From an uncultured Acetatifactor sp. (lineage in GTDB: Bacteria; Bacillota; Clostridia; Lachnospirales; Lachnospiraceae), in the NCBI GenBank assembly GCA_947594835.1, contig CANQEH010000004.1, positions 62,001 to 126,000 on the forward strand: a DNA stretch of 64,000 bases. The letters are read 5' to 3'. Shown here one piece after another: positions 25,907-35,349 of this stretch. The notes beneath the pieces were generated by a model, which was not told where the DNA came from, searched no databases, and was given only the letters and a program-made list of their open reading frames with translations. The number at the start of each line of letters is the position of its first letter. Positions within the stretch are counted from its first letter, which is position 1. The position numbers were made by a program, and so were the translations under genes.

Positions 25907-26059
25907 TTAAAATAAGATCTTGGATTTGCCTGCTATCAGCTTTGCGCCCGTGACGATCAGCAGAATCCCCGAGGCCAGGCCCACTGCCAGGGTGATCACA
26001 CCCACTACAATATTTGCGGCTCCCGCCCCTCTCATCACCTTATAGATTTTCTGTTCCAT
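25907..26059 (-). CDS. Small membrane protein, 50 aa
   Basis: From the ATG at 26059: MEQKIYKVMRGAGAANIVVG followed by one or two hydrophobic segments and a short basic tail (KSKILF). A frame extension to 26095 is strongly basic and lacks a convincing site. It lies between pyrE and the DUF6142-like gene on the same strand. Short single-family membrane proteins of this kind are common and uncharacterised. Confidence 0.6.
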   Translation of the reverse strand: MEQKIYKVMRGAGAANIVVGVITLAVGLASGILLIVTGAKLIAGKSKILF

Positions 26060-26101
26060 CCGTCTGCCCCTTTCCCGTTTTCCCATCTTCCGCACGGGGC
26101 T

Positions 26102-26779
26102 CTATTTTGCCCCGTAAACCTCATAGTAGCGGTCAAACTCCGCCTTGCGGCCATCGTCGATGTACACCTGCCCCTTGTAAGGCCTGTTGTACAGATGTTC
26201 AATGACCTCGCCCATGGTCACAATGGCTCGGGCCGCAAAGCCGTATCGCTCCTGTATCTCGTCCAGGGCGCTTAAGACGCCGTCCTGGCCCTTCTCCATG
26301 CGGTTTAAGGACACCATCAGCCCCTTGATCTCTACGTCCGCCTGGGCTTTCAGGATAGGCACGGTCTCCTCGATGGACTTCCCGGAGGTGGTCACATCCT
26401 CGATAATCACCACCCTGTCCCCGTCTTTTAAGCTGCTGCCTAAAAGGATGCCCGCATCGCCGTGATCCTTGGCTTCCTTGCGGTTAGAGCAATAGCGGAT
26501 CTCTTTTCCATACAGTTCGCTGTAAGCGATGGTAGCCGCCACGCTCAAGGGGATGCCCTTGTAGGCCGGCCCGAACAGTACGTCAAAGTCGTCCCCGTAG
26601 TTGTCGTGGATGGCCTTCGCGTAGTATCCGCCCAGTTTTTTCAGCTGTGCGCCGGTCACATAGGCGCCCGCATTCATAAAAAAGGGGGATTTCCTGCCGC
26701 TCTTTAGTGTAAACTCACCGAATTTCAGCGCCTGGCTGTCCACCATGAACTCGATAAATTCCTGCTTGTACTGTTCCAT
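26102..26779 (-). CDS. pyrE: Orotate phosphoribosyltransferase
   Basis: Converts orotate and PRPP to OMP in pyrimidine synthesis. 225 residues. The PRPP-binding loop VVIIEDVTTSGKSIEE, the FGPAYKGIPL loop and the N-terminal FGEFTLKSGRKSPFF stretch are diagnostic. The ATG at 26779 follows GGAGAAGGTCTG. pyrF, which uses the product, is 15 kb away on the same strand, so the pathway genes are scattered. Confidence 0.96.
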   Translation of the reverse strand: MEQYKQEFIEFMVDSQALKFGEFTLKSGRKSPFFMNAGAYVTGAQLKKLGGYYAKAIHDNYGDDFDVLFGPAYKGIPLSVAATIAYSELYGKEIRYCSNRKEAKDHGDAGILLGSSLKDGDRVVIIEDVTTSGKSIEETVPILKAQADVEIKGLMVSLNRMEKGQDGVLSALDEIQERYGFAARAIVTMGEVIEHLYNRPYKGQVYIDDGRKAEFDRYYEVYGAK

Positions 26780-26874
26780 CAGACCTTCTCCTTTTTTCTG
26801 GTTTTTGCCGATGCCCTTATCTTACCATAAATGCCCTGTATTTGCAATGCGCTCTTCGGGCCGGAATCTCCGCC

Positions 26875-29550
26875 CTATCTTTCCTTTTCCAGAAACAGCA
26901 GTCCAAAAGTGCCCGGGCCGCAGTTGGTGGAAATCGCCGGGGATGCCTTCTGATAGATCACGTTCTCAAAGGGCACCAGCTGCCGCACCTGGGCCGCGAT
27001 CTCATCCAGCTCTCCCGGGAGCAGTCCCGAGTAAGTGATAAACAAAAGTCTCCTGTCGATCCTTCCAGGGGCCTTCAGCGTCTGCCGGATATACTTCCTC
27101 CAGACGGCCTTGCGCATCCCGATATGGATTGCCCCCACCGTCATGCTGCTCTTTTTCAGGACGATGACCGGATGGAGCATACAGGTCTTACACACCGCAT
27201 GAACCCTGGAGGAGATTCTGCCCGAACGCCACAGATATTCCGTGCTCTCCATCACAAAACTGGTTCTGGCGCGTTCCTTCATGCGCCCGATCTCCTGCAG
27301 GACGTCCTCCGCCGACGCGCCTGCTGCCGCCGCCTTGGCGGCGTAGAGTACGATTAACCCCATCCCGCTTGAGAGATGTCCCGAATCCACTACCGTCACA
27401 TTGTCAAAGGAACCCGACGCCTCCAGCGCGTTCTGATACCCTCTGCTGGAGCCCTTGGCCATGGCGATATGGATGATGTGATACGCCCTGGTGAGCTGCT
27501 CTGCGAAAAAGGCCTCGTAGCCCGCCACATCCGGCGCTTCCGAATGGACGTTTTTTTCGCTGTTTAACAGGTATTCCAGCACGCCATCCGTCTCGATCTC
27601 CTCCCCGTCCAGAAACTCGCCGCCCCCGGTCAGCACCCGGTAGGGCTGCACTGCGATCTGATACTTCCCCACAAACTGCGCAGGCAGGTCGCTGACGCTG
27701 TCCGTGGTGATCAGAAGGGATTTCTTTTTCTCATGCCCCACCACCGGCCCCACCAGCACATCGCTGTTTTCCGATGCATTGGTCATCTTGACCAGTTTCT
27801 GGGGCAGGAGGCGCACAAGCTCCTCCTCCAGCTGGCTGCCGCTGACCGGCTTTAACAGATAGCCGTCGAAACCTTCCCGCTGATACAGGACAGTATTCTC
27901 TCCCCCCGCGTTGGCCGTAAGGGCCACCACCGGCGTCTCCACATTCAGGCCGCCCGCCTGGCTGCGGATCCGGTGCAGACACTCTATCCCGTCCATAACA
28001 GGCATCAGATGATCCATCAGAATCACCTCATACCTGGTCTTCATCGTCCTCTCCAGACATTCCTGCCCGCTGGACGCCGTGTCCACGCAGACTTTCGTAC
28101 CCTGCAGCAGCTTCCGCGCCACCATCAGGTTGTCGTCGTTGTCGTCCACGATCAGGATATGCGCCATGGGCGCCTCAAACAGGGAGCGGTACCGCTCCCG
28201 CTTCCTCCGCGTGTGCTTTGTCTCCAGATCCAGTTCTCCCAGCTGCGCTTCGCCCACCACTTTCTGGGGCAGCGTGACCAAGAAGGTGGAGCCCTTGGTA
28301 TACACGCTGTTGACCTCGATGCTGCCGCCCATCAGCGTCACGAGCTGCTTTACGATGGAAAGCCCCAGCCCAGTGCCCTCGATATACCGGTTCTGCGTTT
28401 CGTCCACCCGCTTGAACGTGGTAAACAGGTAATTTATGTTCTCCTTCTTGATCCCGATACCGGTGTCCGAGACGGAATAAGCGATATACACGGTGTCGTC
28501 TTCTCTTTTCTGGCACTGGATCGAGAGCGTGACGGAGCCTTCCGGCGTATACTTGACCGCGTTGTTTAACAGGTTGATCAGAACCTGTTTGATGCGGACC
28601 TCGTCGCCGTAGAGCTGGGCGGGGATGCTCTTCTCCACATTGATGTGGAAGGCAATCCCTTTTTCCTTGGCCCGCACCCAGATCATGTTGACGATATCGG
28701 AGAGCATGGCTCCCACATCATAGGCCGCGGGGACGATCTCCATCTTCCCCGACTCGATCTTTGACATATCCAGGATATCGTTGATCAGCGACAAAAGCAT
28801 CCTGCTGGCGTTTAAGATGTTCTGGGCGTCCTCCGCCACCTCGTCGGACACTTCTTCCCGCAGGATCATCTCGTTTAAGCCGATGATGGTATTGATGGGC
28901 GTCCTGATCTCATGGCTCATGCTGGCAAAAAAGCGGTTCTGGGCCTGGTTTAACTCCTCGATCTGCTTTCTCTGCTGTCTGGCCCGGTGGTTTTCGTCCC
29001 GGTACGCCGCCTTCTGGAACTGCAGCATGACGCAGATCACGCCGGAGACGATGGTCAGCGTGGCGATGGAATCGATATAGGCCATGTCCAGCGTATGCCC
29101 CACCACTTTGTCCGGGTAAAAATAAGCGATCAGATAACACGCCAGAAAGATGGCATAGCCCCCGGCCAGCAGGATATATTTGTACCGCCCTTCCACCACG
29201 ATCACGGCCAGCACAAAGCCTAAAATAAACCAGATGGGAGCGCCCCCGTAGATGCCTCCCGCCGTCAGGAAATTAAAGGGAAGCACCAGAAACATCACAA
29301 GCGCGGATAAGATCACCGCCCCCGCCTCGATCTTTCCCGTCCGCAGCGTGCCGTAGACGATGCCCGCAAGCAGAAGCAGCGCCAGAAGTATCACGGACAG
29401 ATTGAGGGGGCTTTCCCCGTTTAAGGCCCCTGCGACAAAGCCCAGCAAAAGCCCCACGAGCCCGATGAGGGTGATCAGGCGGAACAGCCGCTCCTGCAGG
29501 GAATGCTCCTGGTCCCCCAGGATCTTACGGATCCATTTTCTGATTTTCAT
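26875..29550 (-). CDS. Hybrid histidine kinase with receiver and C-terminal DegV domain
   Basis: 891 residues. About seven membrane segments (residues 22-180) form the sensor; the dimerisation motif FFASMSHEIRTP is near 212; the ATPase domain has NLLNNAVKYTPEG, DTGIGI and GTGLGLSIVK; a receiver domain runs from about 460 with acceptor Asp in LMDHLMPVMDG (near 511). Residues about 610-891 are a complete DegV/EDD domain: LLITTDSVSDLPAQF, AKGSSRGYQNA, VVDSGHLSSGMGL, WRSGRISS and HPVIVLKK. DegV proteins bind fatty acids, as in fatty-acid kinase FakB. The ATG overlaps the upstream kinase's stop (ATGA). Fatty-acid sensing or handling by this kinase is inference. Confidence 0.9.
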   Translation of the reverse strand: MKIRKWIRKILGDQEHSLQERLFRLITLIGLVGLLLGFVAGALNGESPLNLSVILLALLLLAGIVYGTLRTGKIEAGAVILSALVMFLVLPFNFLTAGGIYGGAPIWFILGFVLAVIVVEGRYKYILLAGGYAIFLACYLIAYFYPDKVVGHTLDMAYIDSIATLTIVSGVICVMLQFQKAAYRDENHRARQQRKQIEELNQAQNRFFASMSHEIRTPINTIIGLNEMILREEVSDEVAEDAQNILNASRMLLSLINDILDMSKIESGKMEIVPAAYDVGAMLSDIVNMIWVRAKEKGIAFHINVEKSIPAQLYGDEVRIKQVLINLLNNAVKYTPEGSVTLSIQCQKREDDTVYIAYSVSDTGIGIKKENINYLFTTFKRVDETQNRYIEGTGLGLSIVKQLVTLMGGSIEVNSVYTKGSTFLVTLPQKVVGEAQLGELDLETKHTRRKRERYRSLFEAPMAHILIVDDNDDNLMVARKLLQGTKVCVDTASSGQECLERTMKTRYEVILMDHLMPVMDGIECLHRIRSQAGGLNVETPVVALTANAGGENTVLYQREGFDGYLLKPVSGSQLEEELVRLLPQKLVKMTNASENSDVLVGPVVGHEKKKSLLITTDSVSDLPAQFVGKYQIAVQPYRVLTGGGEFLDGEEIETDGVLEYLLNSEKNVHSEAPDVAGYEAFFAEQLTRAYHIIHIAMAKGSSRGYQNALEASGSFDNVTVVDSGHLSSGMGLIVLYAAKAAAAGASAEDVLQEIGRMKERARTSFVMESTEYLWRSGRISSRVHAVCKTCMLHPVIVLKKSSMTVGAIHIGMRKAVWRKYIRQTLKAPGRIDRRLLFITYSGLLPGELDEIAAQVRQLVPFENVIYQKASPAISTNCGPGTFGLLFLEKER

Positions 29551-32378
29551 TCCTCCTCACCGCCTTCCACGCGCCCAATCAGCGCCGAAGCCTTTCCGGC
29601 CGCCTGGTCAAACTCGAAATTATCCACGTCCCGCGCAATATCCCGCACCAGTTCTCCCAGCGGGATCTCCCCATAGCGCAGGCCCTCCAGCTTCTCTAAC
29701 ACTTTCTGGGCCATGGCCGCCTCATAGGTGTCCAGATATCCTTTGAGCTCCCGAAGGGATGCCGCCAGTTCTGCCCCATCTGCCTCCTGGGACTGGCTCT
29801 GGCTGTCCCCGGCGGGCTGGGCGTCCTCTTCCCGGCCATTGTCGCCCAGGGCGTCTTTGATCTGCTCCACTGTCTTAAGGTATTGGCTGAGCAGTTCCCG
29901 GTGATGGCTTTCCAGATAGGCGGCGTCGCTTTCCTTGGCGGCGTCTTCCATCCCCTTCGCCGTCTGTGAGAGCGCGTCCGCGCCGATCATCCTGGCCGAG
30001 CTTTTCAGGGAATGCGCCTGAATGCGGTAATTCCCGTGATCCTTTTCCAGATACAGCTGCTCCAGCGTCTCCGCCTTTTGGGGCGCATCCTCTGCAAATT
30101 TTTCCAGAAGCTGTACATAAAACGCCTGGTCGCCCCGGCAGTAATTCAGCCCGGAGTCCGTATGGATGCCGGCGCTTTCCAGCGCGGCCATCCTGTCGGT
30201 CTCCCCGGCTGCTGCGGCTGCCCCTGCGTGGGGAAGCGTCTTTTCTTCCGGAGATTCCTCCCCTGTCTGTCCGCCGTCCGCCGTTTCCTCCCCGCCCTCC
30301 TGGGGCAGGAGGCCGTCCCCGTCGGTGTACTGTATATCCGCTTTGGGGAGCACCTTCTTGAGCACGCGCTCTAACTCCGCCGTCTCGATGGGCTTTGCCA
30401 GAAACTCGTCAAAGCCTTCCCTTAAAAACATCTCCCTGGCGCCGCTGACCGCATTGGCGGTAAAGGCGACGGCAGTCAGCCCATCCGCATTTTCCCTGTC
30501 GAGCCTGCGGAGCTGCTTCAACGTCTCCACACCGTCCATCTCCGGCATCATATGGTCGATAAACAGCAGGTCAAACTCCTCCCTCTGACAGATTGCGATG
30601 GCCTCCCTGCCGCTTGACACCGTCACCACGCTCATCCGGTAATCCTTCAGGATACTTTCAGCCACCATCCGGTTCATGGGCTCGTCATCCACCACCAGAA
30701 CCCGCACCCCAGGGCATACCATCCGGACGTCCTTTTCGCCGTCTTCCTCATCGGCCGCGGAGGAATTGAGCACACTGACGATCGGGAAGCAGTAAAAGGG
30801 CTTGGGCAGCAGCTTGATCCGGCTTCCCGCCCGCAGGGAAAAGCCCTGATCCGCCACCACGGTCACCACCATATCCCGGGCAAGCCCTTCAAAGTACTCC
30901 GGGTCTTCTTCGTATTCTTCTCTGGCCAGGAACAGATGGGTCAGAGAGTATGCAGAGATTAAGTGATCCAGCTCATCCTGCCGGAACACCCTGTGGGCCG
31001 TGATGTCCAGGCCCATGGCGATGTGGTTGATCATCGCGTCGTAGAAGCTGCGCACCTCCGAAACCTTGTATTTCTCCGGCATCAGATAGCAGGCAAGGCA
31101 CAGCGCCGCCGGATCCTCCACCGACATACTGGGGGATGCGTCCACAATCTTCTGGGGGATGCTGACCGTCGCCGTGGTGCCCTTGCCCGGCTTGCTTTCC
31201 ATGTGGACAAAGCCCTCCATGGCGGCCGCCATGCCGTGCACGATGGACAGCCCAAGACCCAGGCCGCCCGCCCGGCGGTTGCGCCCTCCGTTTGACTGGT
31301 AGAATTTCTCCCGGATCTTGGAGAGGCTTTCCTCGTCGATGCCGATGCCGGTATCCGACACCTGGATGCACAGATTGATCCCGTAGGGCTTGGGACGCGC
31401 GTAGATCCGCACATAGACGCCGCCCTCTTCCGTGAATTTCACAGCGTTGTTGACCAGATGCCGGATCATCTTTTTGATCTTTCTGCCGTCGCCGGAGAGC
31501 ACAGCCGGGATCCTCGCATCCACGTCAAAGATGAGCTCCACGCCCGCCTTTTCCTCGATGGCGTAGTGCTCGGTGATGATATCGTTGATCAGGGAGGAGA
31601 TCATATAGGGTTCTTCGCTGATCACGATCCTGCCCGCGTCGATCTCCGTGAAGTCCAGAAGATCCTCGATCTGCCCGAACAGCCGGTATCCCGCCTTCTG
31701 CATGGACAGCAGGTTTTCCCGCTTGACACTGTCCGTCTCCCGCTTTAACATCACGGCGGCAAGCCCCGTGACCGCGTTCACCGGGGTGCGCAGCTCGTGG
31801 GAGACATTGGTTAAAAAGTTCTCTGTCCGGCGGTTGGTTTCCTCCAGGTCGGCGATCCTGTCTTTCGCGTCCTTCATCTCGCCCCTGCGCCTCTCCGAGA
31901 TGACCCTGGTCACATAGGGGATCGTGATGACGAGCCCTCCGTGGAGCAGCAGCCTGGAGATGGAAAGAGGGGTAAATTCAAAGGAATCCCGGAAGGCATA
32001 TAAGATGCCGTAAAAGAGCACCGCAAAATACCCGATGACGAAGAAACGGATCATGTCGTAGGTTTCCGCGGCGAAGTAGACGACCATAATCACGATCATG
32101 ACTGGCGCCAGGTCATACAGGCTGGTGTAATGCCCCCCGTAAAAGGCAAAGCCGGCCATCCCGAGGGCAAAATGCAACCATTTTTCCACCGATTCCGGCA
32201 CCCGTCCCGCAATGTGCAGCATCCAGCACAGAATCAAACCCGCCGCCAGCTCCAGCACCACCATTATGTCCCAGCCCATCAAAATGCTTTCCAGCAGCAA
32301 AACGGCGATCATCACGGTATAGCTGATCAGAATGATCAGCTGCGATATCTGTCTCTTTTCCTGTTCGTACATACCCAC
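29547..32378 (-). CDS. Hybrid histidine kinase with receiver and HPt domains
   Basis: About 943 residues; translation starts at GTG 32378 or ATG 32372. Several membrane segments (15-175), dimerisation motif LTNVSHELRTPVNA (near 194), ATPase domain with HLVNNAVKFTEEG and GGLGLGLSIVHG, then a degenerate receiver-like stretch lacking the acceptor Asp, then a good receiver (VRVLVVDDEPMN near 558, acceptor in FIDHMMPEMDG near 608), and an HPt domain with the phospho-His in AHSLKSSARMIGA (near 789). It carries all stations of a phosphorelay. Middle gene of a three-gene signalling operon: 3 bp after the HD-GYP gene and overlapping the DegV-kinase gene by 4 bp. Confidence 0.92.
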   Translation of the reverse strand: MGMYEQEKRQISQLIILISYTVMIAVLLLESILMGWDIMVVLELAAGLILCWMLHIAGRVPESVEKWLHFALGMAGFAFYGGHYTSLYDLAPVMIVIMVVYFAAETYDMIRFFVIGYFAVLFYGILYAFRDSFEFTPLSISRLLLHGGLVITIPYVTRVISERRRGEMKDAKDRIADLEETNRRTENFLTNVSHELRTPVNAVTGLAAVMLKRETDSVKRENLLSMQKAGYRLFGQIEDLLDFTEIDAGRIVISEEPYMISSLINDIITEHYAIEEKAGVELIFDVDARIPAVLSGDGRKIKKMIRHLVNNAVKFTEEGGVYVRIYARPKPYGINLCIQVSDTGIGIDEESLSKIREKFYQSNGGRNRRAGGLGLGLSIVHGMAAAMEGFVHMESKPGKGTTATVSIPQKIVDASPSMSVEDPAALCLACYLMPEKYKVSEVRSFYDAMINHIAMGLDITAHRVFRQDELDHLISAYSLTHLFLAREEYEEDPEYFEGLARDMVVTVVADQGFSLRAGSRIKLLPKPFYCFPIVSVLNSSAADEEDGEKDVRMVCPGVRVLVVDDEPMNRMVAESILKDYRMSVVTVSSGREAIAICQREEFDLLFIDHMMPEMDGVETLKQLRRLDRENADGLTAVAFTANAVSGAREMFLREGFDEFLAKPIETAELERVLKKVLPKADIQYTDGDGLLPQEGGEETADGGQTGEESPEEKTLPHAGAAAAAGETDRMAALESAGIHTDSGLNYCRGDQAFYVQLLEKFAEDAPQKAETLEQLYLEKDHGNYRIQAHSLKSSARMIGADALSQTAKGMEDAAKESDAAYLESHHRELLSQYLKTVEQIKDALGDNGREEDAQPAGDSQSQSQEADGAELAASLRELKGYLDTYEAAMAQKVLEKLEGLRYGEIPLGELVRDIARDVDNFEFDQAAGKASALIGRVEGGEEE

Positions 32379-32381
32379 CGC

Positions 32382-33425
32382 CTATTTTTCCCTCATCTGG
32401 TAATCCGTGTCTGCGTCGATCATGGATAACATGATATCCGCAAAGACCGGATCAAACTGCGTGCCCTTTCCCGCTTCCACCTCTGCCCGCACCTGCGCCT
32501 GGGGGAGCACGCCGCGGTAACTGCGCCTGGAGCTCATGGCGTCGTAGGCGTCGGCCACGGCTATGATACGCGCTTCCACCGGGATGTCTTCCCCGGAAAG
32601 CCCGTCCGGGTATCCCCTGCCGTCGTATCTCTCGTGGTGATACCTGGCGCCCATCAGCAATTTGGGGAAATCGGGAATCTGTTTCAGGATCTTTTCCCCC
32701 AGGATGGGGTGGGTCTTGATGATCCCGTATTCCTCGTCGGTCAGCCTGGATGGCTTGTTGATGATGTCGTCCGGAATACCGATCTTGCCCACGTCATGGA
32801 TCAGGCCGATCATGTAGATCTCCTCCTGGGCCTCCCGGGAAAAGCCCGCCCGGGCGGCAATGGCTCTGGAATAATCCGCCACCCGCAGGGAATGGCCGTT
32901 GGTATAGGTGTCCTTTGCGTCGATGGCCCCAGCCAGAGCCATGGACACCTGGGTGGAGAGCCTGGCCAGCTTCTGTGCCTGGGTCAGCACCTCCCGCGTC
33001 TTCTCCTCCACCTCATGGGACAGATCTGCCTGCAGGCGCGTCAGGTCTATGGCATGATTTACCCGCAGAAGCAGCACATCCGGCACAAAGGGCTTTCGGA
33101 TAAAGTCCATGGCGCCGGCCTGAAGTCCCCGGCTCTCCACGTCGCTGTCGTCGTCCGCCGTGAGGAAAATCACCGGGATGTCCCGGGCCTCCTGGCTGCC
33201 TGAATGTCCGCCCCCCCGGATCGCCGCCAGGGTCTCAAAGCCGTCCATCCCCGGCATATGTACGTCCAAAAGAATCAGATCCGGCCTGTTTGTCTTCAGG
33301 AACCGGAGCGCCACCTCCCCCGACTTTACGCAGCTTACCCGCATTCCCTCCGCGCTGAGTATGCTGTTGGCCATTATGAGATTTGCCGTGTCGTCGTCAA
33401 CGACCAGTATTTTTTTCTCCTCCAT
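32382..33425 (-). CDS. Response regulator with HD-GYP c-di-GMP phosphodiesterase domain
   Basis: 347 residues from the ATG at 33425 (MEEKKILVVDDDTANL). The receiver has its acceptor Asp in LILLDVHMPGMDG (near 52). The C-terminal HD-GYP domain has NGHSLRVADYS, LIHDVGKIGIPD (near 209), HHERYDGRGYPDGL and VADAYDAMSS, so metal ligands and the GYP loop are intact. It should hydrolyse c-di-GMP, controlled by phosphorylation. First gene of the operon with the two hybrid kinases, and the likely output of their relay. The frame extends to 33476 but no good start lies there. The promoter is at 33506-33533. Confidence 0.93.
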   Translation of the reverse strand: MEEKKILVVDDDTANLIMANSILSAEGMRVSCVKSGEVALRFLKTNRPDLILLDVHMPGMDGFETLAAIRGGGHSGSQEARDIPVIFLTADDDSDVESRGLQAGAMDFIRKPFVPDVLLLRVNHAIDLTRLQADLSHEVEEKTREVLTQAQKLARLSTQVSMALAGAIDAKDTYTNGHSLRVADYSRAIAARAGFSREAQEEIYMIGLIHDVGKIGIPDDIINKPSRLTDEEYGIIKTHPILGEKILKQIPDFPKLLMGARYHHERYDGRGYPDGLSGEDIPVEARIIAVADAYDAMSSRRSYRGVLPQAQVRAEVEAGKGTQFDPVFADIMLSMIDADTDYQMREK

Positions 33426-33505
33426 GGCTGGATACCCCTTCCTCTTTTTTGGGCGCTCCTGCAGAGTCCTCCCCATCCGGTCCCTGCGGCCTGCCCCTAA
33501 CTACT

Positions 33506-33533
33506 ATTATATCCCCTTTCCCATTTTATTCAA
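33506..33533 (-). promoter_or_regulatory. Promoter of the signalling operon
   Basis: -35 TTGAAT (33528-33533), 16-bp spacer, -10 TATAAT (33506-33511). It overlaps the last codons of the upstream FecE-like gene and stands about 80 bp before the HD-GYP start. Confidence 0.7.
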
Positions 33534-34352
33534 CCGTCGATTCGCCGTTTCTTTTTCTTTCGGACAGACTGCCGCGTCCCGCACATCTTCCCGCGTCCTC
33601 TCCCATCGCGCCCGGCTGCGGCGCATATACCCGGGCACATCCATGCCGTACACCCGGCTCAAGGCCTCAAAATCCAGCTCTTTCGTCCTCCCCAGGAAAA
33701 CCGTCTTCCCCTGCTCCATCAAAAGCACCCTGTCCGCAAAGGAGAGCGCCAGGTCTAAGTCGTGGAAGACGCCGATGGCCGCCCGGCCCGGCTCACGGAC
33801 CCACCGCCCAAGCTCCTCCACCAGTTCCACCTGAAACCTTAAGTCCAGATGGTTGGTGGGCTCATCCAACAGGATGACCTTCGGCTCCTGGACAAAGGCC
33901 CGCGCCAGCAGAACCCGCTGCAGCTGGCCGCCGGAGAGTTCCGTGATCAGCCTGTCCCGTTCTTCCCACAAATTCAGCCGTCTGAGCTGCTCCTGGGCCG
34001 CCCTCCGGTCCTCTGGGCCAAAGGCCCCAAAAAGCCCTCTGGCCCTGTGGGGATACCGCCCCAGGAGCACCGTCTCCATCACCGTATACGAAAAAGCGGC
34101 GCCGCTCATCTGGGCAAACATGGCCAGGGCCCGCGCCCGCTCCCGCACCGTCATGGCCCGCAGGGACTTTCCCTCCAGTTCCAGAACGCCCGCAGACGGC
34201 AGGATGCCCATGATCCCCCGAAGGAGCGTGGTCTTGCCGCAGCCGTTGGGGCCGAGAACGGCCAGCCGCTCCCCCTCGGAAAGGGTAAGGGAAATGTCCC
34301 GCACCACCGGTTCCCTGCCATACCCGCAGGATAAGTTTTCCAACCGAAGCAT
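33507..34352 (-). CDS. ABC transporter ATP-binding protein, FecE-like
   Basis: 281 residues from the ATG at 34352 (MLRLENLSCGYG). Walker A GPNGCGKTTLL, signature LSGGQLQRVLLARA and Walker B VILLDEPTNHLD are intact. It powers uptake of an iron-siderophore, haem or cobalamin-type compound through the FecCD permease. The start follows GGGGGCGGTGAG and nearly abuts the permease stop (TGAGATG), so the two are coupled. Third gene of a binding protein-permease-ATPase operon. The substrate cannot be told from sequence. Confidence 0.93.
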   Translation of the reverse strand: MLRLENLSCGYGREPVVRDISLTLSEGERLAVLGPNGCGKTTLLRGIMGILPSAGVLELEGKSLRAMTVRERARALAMFAQMSGAAFSYTVMETVLLGRYPHRARGLFGAFGPEDRRAAQEQLRRLNLWEERDRLITELSGGQLQRVLLARAFVQEPKVILLDEPTNHLDLRFQVELVEELGRWVREPGRAAIGVFHDLDLALSFADRVLLMEQGKTVFLGRTKELDFEALSRVYGMDVPGYMRRSRARWERTREDVRDAAVCPKEKETANRRLNKMGKGI

Positions 34353-34353
34353 C

Positions 34354-35349
34354 TCACCGCCCCCTTTTCTGGAAAAATACAAAGAGGAAAAACGGAGCGC
34401 CCAGCAGGGCCGTCACCGCGCCCACCGGGATCTCCCTGGGCGAGAAAAGCGTCCTGGCCGCCAGGTCGCCAAGCACCATAAGGCTTCCGCCCAGCACGGC
34501 CCCGGCGGGCAGAATCCGCCTGTGTCCCGCCCCGAAAAGGCGGCGGGCAATGTGGGGGGCTGCCAGATCCACAAAGCCGATGATACCGCAAAACGCCACA
34601 GCGGTGCCCGTCAGCGCCGCCACCAAGAGGATCAGCCCCTGCTTTGCCCGGGTGGGATCCACCCCCATGGCCTGGGCCTGTTCCCCGCCAAAGGTCATCA
34701 CGTCTAACAGAGGCGCACAGGCCATAAAGACGCCCAGACAGACGAGCAATACGGGCCCCAGCACCGCCGCTCCCCGCCAGCCCCTGGCCGCAAAACTGCC
34801 CATCTGCCACAGGCTGATGCGCTGCGCATACTCCGGGGACATCGCCGCCATCAGATCCATGGCCGCAGAGAAAAACAGGGAGAGCACCATGCCGGTGAGC
34901 ACCACCGTCACATTGGAAAGCCTTGCGTCAAATGCCTTTGCAAGGGCCAGGGCCAGCAGGACTGCCGCCAGTCCCCCCGCAAAACCTGCCGCCGGCAGGC
35001 CGAAGACTGCGCCGATCCCTCCTGCCAGGCCCGTCACCATGGCAGCCGTAACCCCCAGCCCAGCCCCGGCGGAGACGCCCAGGCTAAAGGGGGAGGCCAG
35101 CGGGTTTCCCAGCGCCGACTGCATCACCGTGCCGCCCACCGCCAGTGCCGCCCCCGCCAGAAAGGCCAAGGCCACCCTGGGCAGGCGCAGACCCCAGAGA
35201 AGGGCGCGGACACTCTCCTCCCCTCCGCCGAAAAGCGCCGCCAGGATCTCCTTCGGAGAGAGCCAGACGCTCCCCACGCCGACGCCCAGGAGGATCGAAC
35301 CCGCCGCCAGGAGCGCAAGCCCCGCCGCGCCCCTTCTCCCTCTACTCAC
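34354..35349 (-). CDS. FecCD-family ABC transporter permease
   Basis: 331 residues with about nine or ten membrane segments. The family pattern is clear: LPRVALAFLAGAALAVGGTV, QSALGNPLASPFSLGVSAGA, and GIIGFVDLAAPHIARRLFG near the cytoplasmic ATPase contact. It overlaps the end of the binding-protein gene by 8 bases (35342-35349). Works with the lipoprotein outside and the ATPase inside to import a metal chelate or corrinoid. Confidence 0.95.
   Translation of the reverse strand: MSRGRRGAAGLALLAAGSILLGVGVGSVWLSPKEILAALFGGGEESVRALLWGLRLPRVALAFLAGAALAVGGTVMQSALGNPLASPFSLGVSAGAGLGVTAAMVTGLAGGIGAVFGLPAAGFAGGLAAVLLALALAKAFDARLSNVTVVLTGMVLSLFFSAAMDLMAAMSPEYAQRISLWQMGSFAARGWRGAAVLGPVLLVCLGVFMACAPLLDVMTFGGEQAQAMGVDPTRAKQGLILLVAALTGTAVAFCGIIGFVDLAAPHIARRLFGAGHRRILPAGAVLGGSLMVLGDLAARTLFSPREIPVGAVTALLGAPFFLFVFFQKRGR

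Follow-up and report, generated by a model that had tools for sequence, protein, structure and literature searches.

The window analysed here is a stretch of 64,000 nucleotides from the genome of an uncultured Acetatifactor sp. of the family Lachnospiraceae, and the subject is a gene in it that encodes a hybrid histidine kinase fused to a DegV domain. The gene is a single open frame (26875-29550, minus strand) starting from ATG. It encodes 891 amino acids (aa) in the order membrane helices, HisKA, HATPase_c, receiver, linker and DegV, and all four Pfam matches are far above their cut-offs.

26875..29550, minus strand: hybrid histidine kinase with a C-terminal DegV domain, 891 aa (open frame, Pfam and structure model)
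28966..29550, minus strand: N-terminal membrane part, residues 1-195, about six hydrophobic helices (hydropathy, helices in the model)
28747..28944, minus strand: HisKA, residues 203-268, phospho-acceptor His213 (Pfam)
28261..28608, minus strand: HATPase_c, residues 315-430 (Pfam)
27820..28158, minus strand: receiver (Response_reg), residues 465-577, phospho-acceptor Asp513 (Pfam)
26887..27714, minus strand: DegV/EDD domain, residues 613-888, with Ser670, Ser702 and Arg778 kept, Ile810 and Asn876 (Pfam, alignments)

The DegV family PF02645 matches residues 613-888 with 144.8 bits against a cut-off of 27, NCBIfam TIGR00762 (DegV) gives 164.4 bits against 99.7, and the domain has the two-domain EDD fold. 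An earlier note on this DNA had read the gene as a hybrid kinase and a complete DegV domain in one uninterrupted frame and had proposed a search for PF02645 at the C-terminus. That reading is borne out, and the motifs quoted for it (TTDSVSDLP, GSSRGYQNA, DSGHLSSGMGL and SGRISS) are all present in the frame. The domain was placed at residues about 610-891; it is indeed found there, with the start refined to about 608-613. The kinase part has HisKA, HATPase_c and the receiver (REC), each phospho-acceptor being present. His213 is conserved in 74 of the 74 alignment rows that have a residue there (7 of the 81 rows are gapped), and Asp513 in 78 of 79. Residues 1-195 gave no Pfam match at E 0.001. 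For six pairs with close relatives the ratio of nonsynonymous to synonymous substitution rates was 0.09-0.17 in the DegV part and 0.11-0.22 in the receiver, the synonymous sites being rather saturated. In a model of the full-length protein DegV forms a separate domain, with block values of the predicted local distance difference test (pLDDT) mostly at 78-94, and it follows a linker after the receiver (591-608) with pLDDT under 50.

The fusion recurs in other genomes, where the earlier note had suggested that it be counted. From 200 scanned family genomes, the window genome among them, at least 47 fused proteins of this DegV branch were collected. Four candidates per genome were scored, and 47 is the number of listed rows reaching into DegV, the number of fused copies being a lower bound. 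Among named public records, the kinase and DegV parts share a single frame in 78 of 80 contigs, and in the remaining two the locus is truncated at the contig start. This frame is at least 880 aa long in 69 of the 80 contigs and shorter in nine of the single-frame cases. The DegV branch is not rare within the family, as a profile of the fused DegV matches 73 of 397 sampled family genomes at E <= 1e-83. Among the matches listed there, 90 of 101 lie in frames of at least 700 aa; of the 11 in shorter frames, one is cut by the contig end (G163, locus L063), nine others were inspected and one (G721) was left out. A phylum-wide sample gave matches in 3 of 398 genomes, the window's own included. In a class scan of 391 genomes the listed matches in frames above 700 aa scored at least 322 bits, and their genomes belong to the window's family or to a single genus of a different family; among the matches listed, no other exceeded 276 bits. 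The isolate names of relatives (Lapin, Sheep_Rumen) suggest animal guts as the habitat.

The window genome itself has six DegV matches: four stand-alone frames, the window fusion and a second fusion. The latter is a 908-aa frame on a different contig and is 45% identical to the window protein over residues 4-889. On the 3' side of this second copy (L006, 2362-3252, plus strand) lies a gene for a 296-aa protein that by eye has a hemerythrin-like and a CheX-like part. One of the stand-alone DegV genes has a FakA match some 3 kb away, and a second FakA-like middle-domain match (G000 C13:2310-2540, L018) has an open frame of only 98 aa. The genome also has 14 GGDEF matches, so signalling by cyclic diguanylate (c-di-GMP) is likely to be present.

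Upstream of the fused gene a partner kinase comes first, and a regulator with REC and HD-GYP domains lies beyond it.

29547..32378, minus strand: partner hybrid kinase HisKA-HATPase_c-REC-Hpt, 943 aa, with a 4-base overlap with the fused gene (open frame and Pfam)
29874..30113, minus strand: Hpt of the partner, residues 756-835, the sole Hpt found in the pair (Pfam)
32382..33476, minus strand: REC and HD-GYP response regulator, a putative c-di-GMP phosphodiesterase (Pfam; HHExxDGxGYP visible in the frame)

Scans of 26000-34600 gave 5 promoter sites against 2.9 expected and 10 terminator sites against 6.7 expected, which adds little. The gene order was followed through 121 distinct loci, 105 of them with at least 3 kb upstream, a partner being defined as the nearest same-strand frame of more than 400 aa that matches the kinase core of the window's partner. 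The upstream neighbour is such a hybrid kinase in 101 of the 105, and the 4-base overlap, seen in 55, is the commonest arrangement. The four loci without a counted partner are L023 and L083, where the partner region is in pieces, L076, and L125, which is a 102nd case having a 970-aa partner with an 83-base overlap over the limit used. At L023 (6001-8994, plus strand) the fused protein enters a stretch of proline and unknown bases and the partner is in two pieces, which looks like an assembly problem. When it comes to the next place upstream, 98 loci have at least 4.2 kb of sequence; an HD-GYP gene is found there in 62, with HHExxDGxGYP present in 58 of these, and another REC-bearing gene in 13, three of which are kinases. 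REC-GGDEF genes adjoin the system in L038, L197, L198, L201 and L217. Control loci whose N-terminal part is similar but which lack DegV (L171-L175 and L182-L184) have a kinase directly upstream in 0 of 8, in a set that is small and includes two loci (L172 and L174) that end soon after.

The two kinases of a pair have one Hpt between them. It is found only in the partner in 94 of the 101 pairs and only in the tail of the DegV protein in five; in the last two neither chain has one, and these loci contain an additional kinase, with the Hpt-bearing one a gene further on. Hpt on both chains was found in 0 of 101. L043 is a sixth tail case, outside the pair count because its upstream sequence is too short; its DegV protein has an Hpt at 29.0 bits (Pfam cut-off 24.6), and its partner has none. 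DegV-Hpt proteins without a kinase occur in L200 and L201, and DegV at the front of an Hpt-bearing kinase in L195 and L202, in each case with no Hpt in the partner. The Pfam scores for Hpt are 25.9 in L195, 25.1 in L202 and 20.4, below the cut-off, in L200, while L201 was outside the Pfam run. In a tree of the DegV domains the tail form L033 pairs with L036, which has no tail, so the tail may have arisen more than once. An Hpt that moves between chains without doubling is what one expects if both chains share one phosphorelay, and the fact that either chain of a pair may bear it, but not both at once, amounts to a natural experiment. The single chain of L195 (808-5544, minus strand) has 1578 aa, with DegV at the N-terminus followed by dCache, HisKA, HATPase_c, REC and Hpt, and in L117 and L120 the Hpt kinase and the DegV kinase are separated by a further hybrid kinase.

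The tree comprises 85 DegV domains and divides 60 signalling members from 25 stand-alones by a branch with support 100/100 (L203, cut by the contig start, was omitted). Loci L196-L199 have DegV alone beside a histidine kinase with REC and Hpt, and they fall outside the 56-row branch that contains the fused forms (support 95/99). The likely order of events starts from a DegV protein encoded next to a hybrid kinase; it was then fused to a second kinase, and rearrangements came later. These basal loci with DegV alone, together with the linker in the model, suggest for DegV the role of a tethered regulator able to influence the partner kinase. L215-L217, from one genus of another family in the same class, have the kinase pair and a regulator; they nest inside the family's tree, which suggests that they acquired the system by transfer. 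The neighbourhoods of ten high-scoring stand-alone DegV genes from other families (L205-L214) gave no match to the window's kinase segments; in two of them (L208 and L211) the DegV frame itself was dropped at gene picking.

The fused domain resembles FakB/DegV proteins (PF02645, TIGR00762; S. aureus FakB1) in fold and length, and the window protein has Ser/Thr at position 62, Ser95, Ser171 and Arg173 (FakB numbering). It differs in being fused to a hybrid kinase (in relatives also beside one) within a signalling operon, and in having Ile at Arg205 and Asn at His270. Arg205 is described as completely conserved in FakB and key to the binding of FakA, with a role towards FakA and the membrane (PMC8892158). 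In multiple alignments the corresponding position, Ile810 in the window, is arginine in 1 of 47 fused domains and 0 of 81 close relatives, as against 23 of 25 stand-alones; pairwise alignment places the stretch around residue 810 differently, and the multiple alignments were followed. An arginine three residues further on (Arg813) is found in the window and others, 13 of the 47 fused domains in all, and 24 of the 47 have no arginine within 808-814. The position of His270, which belongs to the carboxylate network of FakB, is Asn876 in the window; it is asparagine in 42 of 47 fused domains, as well as in 11 of 11 additional branch members, and histidine in 1 of 47, compared with histidine in 22 of 25 stand-alones. 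Other pocket residues are kept in the window's own group, where four positions are near invariant (77-80 of 81). The Arg173 latch is kept as Arg778, an arginine shared by 79 of 81 close relatives but by 22 of 47 domains of the wider set; Thr62 is replaced by Ser670 (Ser in 80 of 81) and Ser95 is Ser702 (Ser in 77 of 81), both serines being weaker in the wider set. The 25 stand-alones come from 20 hand-picked loci, mostly near the top of the class scan, and the window genome's four, and are not a random sample; the sets of 47 and 81 overlap by the window and five near-identical loci. Judged by these residues, the fused DegV domain appears to have lost key parts of its usual metabolic role.

The reading that we prefer, with a probability of roughly 0.55, is a three-gene phosphorelay from paired kinases through a single Hpt to HD-GYP and c-di-GMP, in which DegV is a lipid-sensing input. 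The three genes between 33476 and 26875 on the minus strand would form one phosphorelay, and the membrane hybrid kinases, of which one has Hpt and the other DegV at its end, would act as a pair. Phosphate would travel by way of the one Hpt to the adjacent REC-HD-GYP regulator, and this protein would then alter c-di-GMP levels; the relay probably controls c-di-GMP. DegV would be a cytosolic regulatory input on a flexible linker, from a signalling branch of the FakB/DegV family. It probably binds an acyl chain or a similar lipid and reports to the kinase pair, and it would no longer pass lipid to FakA. We infer that it acts as input rather than output. The earlier note had proposed that lipid status is coupled to a phosphorelay. 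The phosphorelay half of this proposal is well supported by gene order and domains, that is by the conserved partner with its Hpt and the frequent REC-HD-GYP regulator, while the lipid half draws on the fold and a partly kept pocket.

Several observations weigh against the preferred reading. DegV comes after the receiver in most members, a position in which output domains are often found. In 23 of the 98 loci neither an HD-GYP gene nor another REC gene lies next to the pair, and in L054 (1206-3118, plus strand) genes for a methyl-accepting chemotaxis protein (MCP) and CheW precede it, a Pfam assignment made for L054 only and hinting at a chemotaxis-type link instead of HD-GYP in that branch. 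Since some loci have no recognised regulator and one branch has MCP and CheW, c-di-GMP is not the sole possible output. Genes similar in size to those of L054 lie at the corresponding place in L055-L058, L060 and L061. The HisKA motif is missing in both kinases of L058, in the fused one of L057 and in the partner of L059 and L060. The combination of Thr or Ser at 62, Ser95 and Arg173 is found in only 16 of 47 fused domains as against 25 of 25 stand-alones (a slightly looser count, with Ser or Thr accepted at 95), so fatty-acid binding may not be general. The model has no confident contact between DegV and the rest of the chain (mean pLDDT 77.3, predicted template modelling score 0.43). The divergence of DegV correlates with that of the partner (r 0.716) and with that of its own kinase part (0.647) over 42 loci, where 2000 permutations reach at most 0.146, but shared descent alone could give such a mirror correlation, as the comparison is without an unrelated control gene.

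Among the alternatives, DegV might be a ligand-free docking or dimerisation part that joins the two kinases, like members of the wider fold that have turned into regulator subunits. This is unlikely, as docking alone would not obviously need the four near-invariant pocket positions of the window group. Slightly less likely again is a sensor of something other than a free fatty acid, for instance an acyl compound without a free carboxylate. The exchange of the carboxylate-network histidine for asparagine throughout most of the branch and the serines that remain in the close group fit such a ligand, though the argument is one from sequence alone.

The third alternative is that DegV is an output, so that phosphorylation of the receiver allows a FakB-like domain to take up or give off fatty acid for FakA and the kinase thereby gates fatty-acid phosphorylation, as the earlier note had also considered. 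DegV directly follows the receiver, a FakA gene lies near a stand-alone DegV in the window genome, Arg778 and Ser702 are kept, and Arg813 could substitute for Arg205. However, the residue at Arg205 is replaced in 46 of 47 fused domains and is never arginine in the close relatives, about half of the fused domains have no arginine nearby, His270 is nearly always lost, and the basal members have DegV without an attached receiver. The residue changes make a FakB function through FakA unlikely, with Arg813 as a caution, and the basal loci do the same for DegV as a pure receiver output, a role that the fused form might still have; taken as a whole the gating proposal is improbable. That an assembly or sequencing error joined two genes can be rejected with near certainty, for although the window genome is a draft assembly in 47 contigs, the single frame is found in 78 of 80 named contigs, with the other two cut by contig starts, and 90 of the 101 listed matches lie in long frames.

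If the preferred reading is extended, a FakA-independent DegV would be the lipid sensor of a c-di-GMP network, and Lachnospiraceae could read a fatty acid (self-made, dietary or from the host) and switch between attached and free life. The DegV system would then be a Gram-positive counterpart of DSF-RpfC-RpfG (DSF, diffusible signal factor) built from FakB. This wider picture is tentative and falls somewhat short of an even chance. A literature search on DegV with histidine kinases, HD-GYP or phosphorelays, of partial coverage, found no description by title or abstract start, in agreement with the earlier statement that no characterised example was known. DegV as one domain of a multidomain protein is mentioned in passing in PMC12288450, and tables in PMC9912610 and PMC10269507 have DegV as a separate gene. 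A PAS domain is named in a review as the receptor for the fatty-acid signal BDSF (a signal of the DSF type), so the gap concerns lipids outside quorum signals of this kind. A FakB-type domain that is part of a phosphorelay and has HD-GYP or GGDEF regulators next to it is a direct candidate to fill that gap, and one that can be tested. The parts of the relay are ordinary; new are the putative DegV input, the changed FakA side and the Hpt on either chain.

The DegV case resembles DhaQ/DhaS and DhaK/DhaR, in which a carrier-type fold of a kinase system is reused as a regulator. Here, too, a metabolic carrier would have become a signalling part, and residues that served its former partner have been exchanged. 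In RpfC-RpfG a fatty-acid signal is linked to an HD-GYP regulator by way of a kinase that also has REC and HPt, and RpfC is described as sensing DSF through a short N-terminal region (PMC5391125). The system described here shares with it, in layout only, an HK-REC-Hpt kinase (HK, histidine kinase) paired with a REC-HD-GYP regulator, and differs in the added DegV kinase. In HnoX-HnoK-HnoB and NosP-NahK-NarR an auxiliary ligand-binding protein, a kinase and a c-di-GMP regulator work together, and in the former the kinase is under the control of the auxiliary protein and the kinase's regulator breaks down c-di-GMP (PMC8846402). The basal loci with DegV alone have the same layout, some with REC-GGDEF adjoining. 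The putative binding protein is here of the DegV/EDD type, whereas theirs is a sensor of nitric oxide, and most members fuse DegV to a second hybrid kinase. HnoX-HnoK-HnoB is the closest working parallel to the proposed DegV system.
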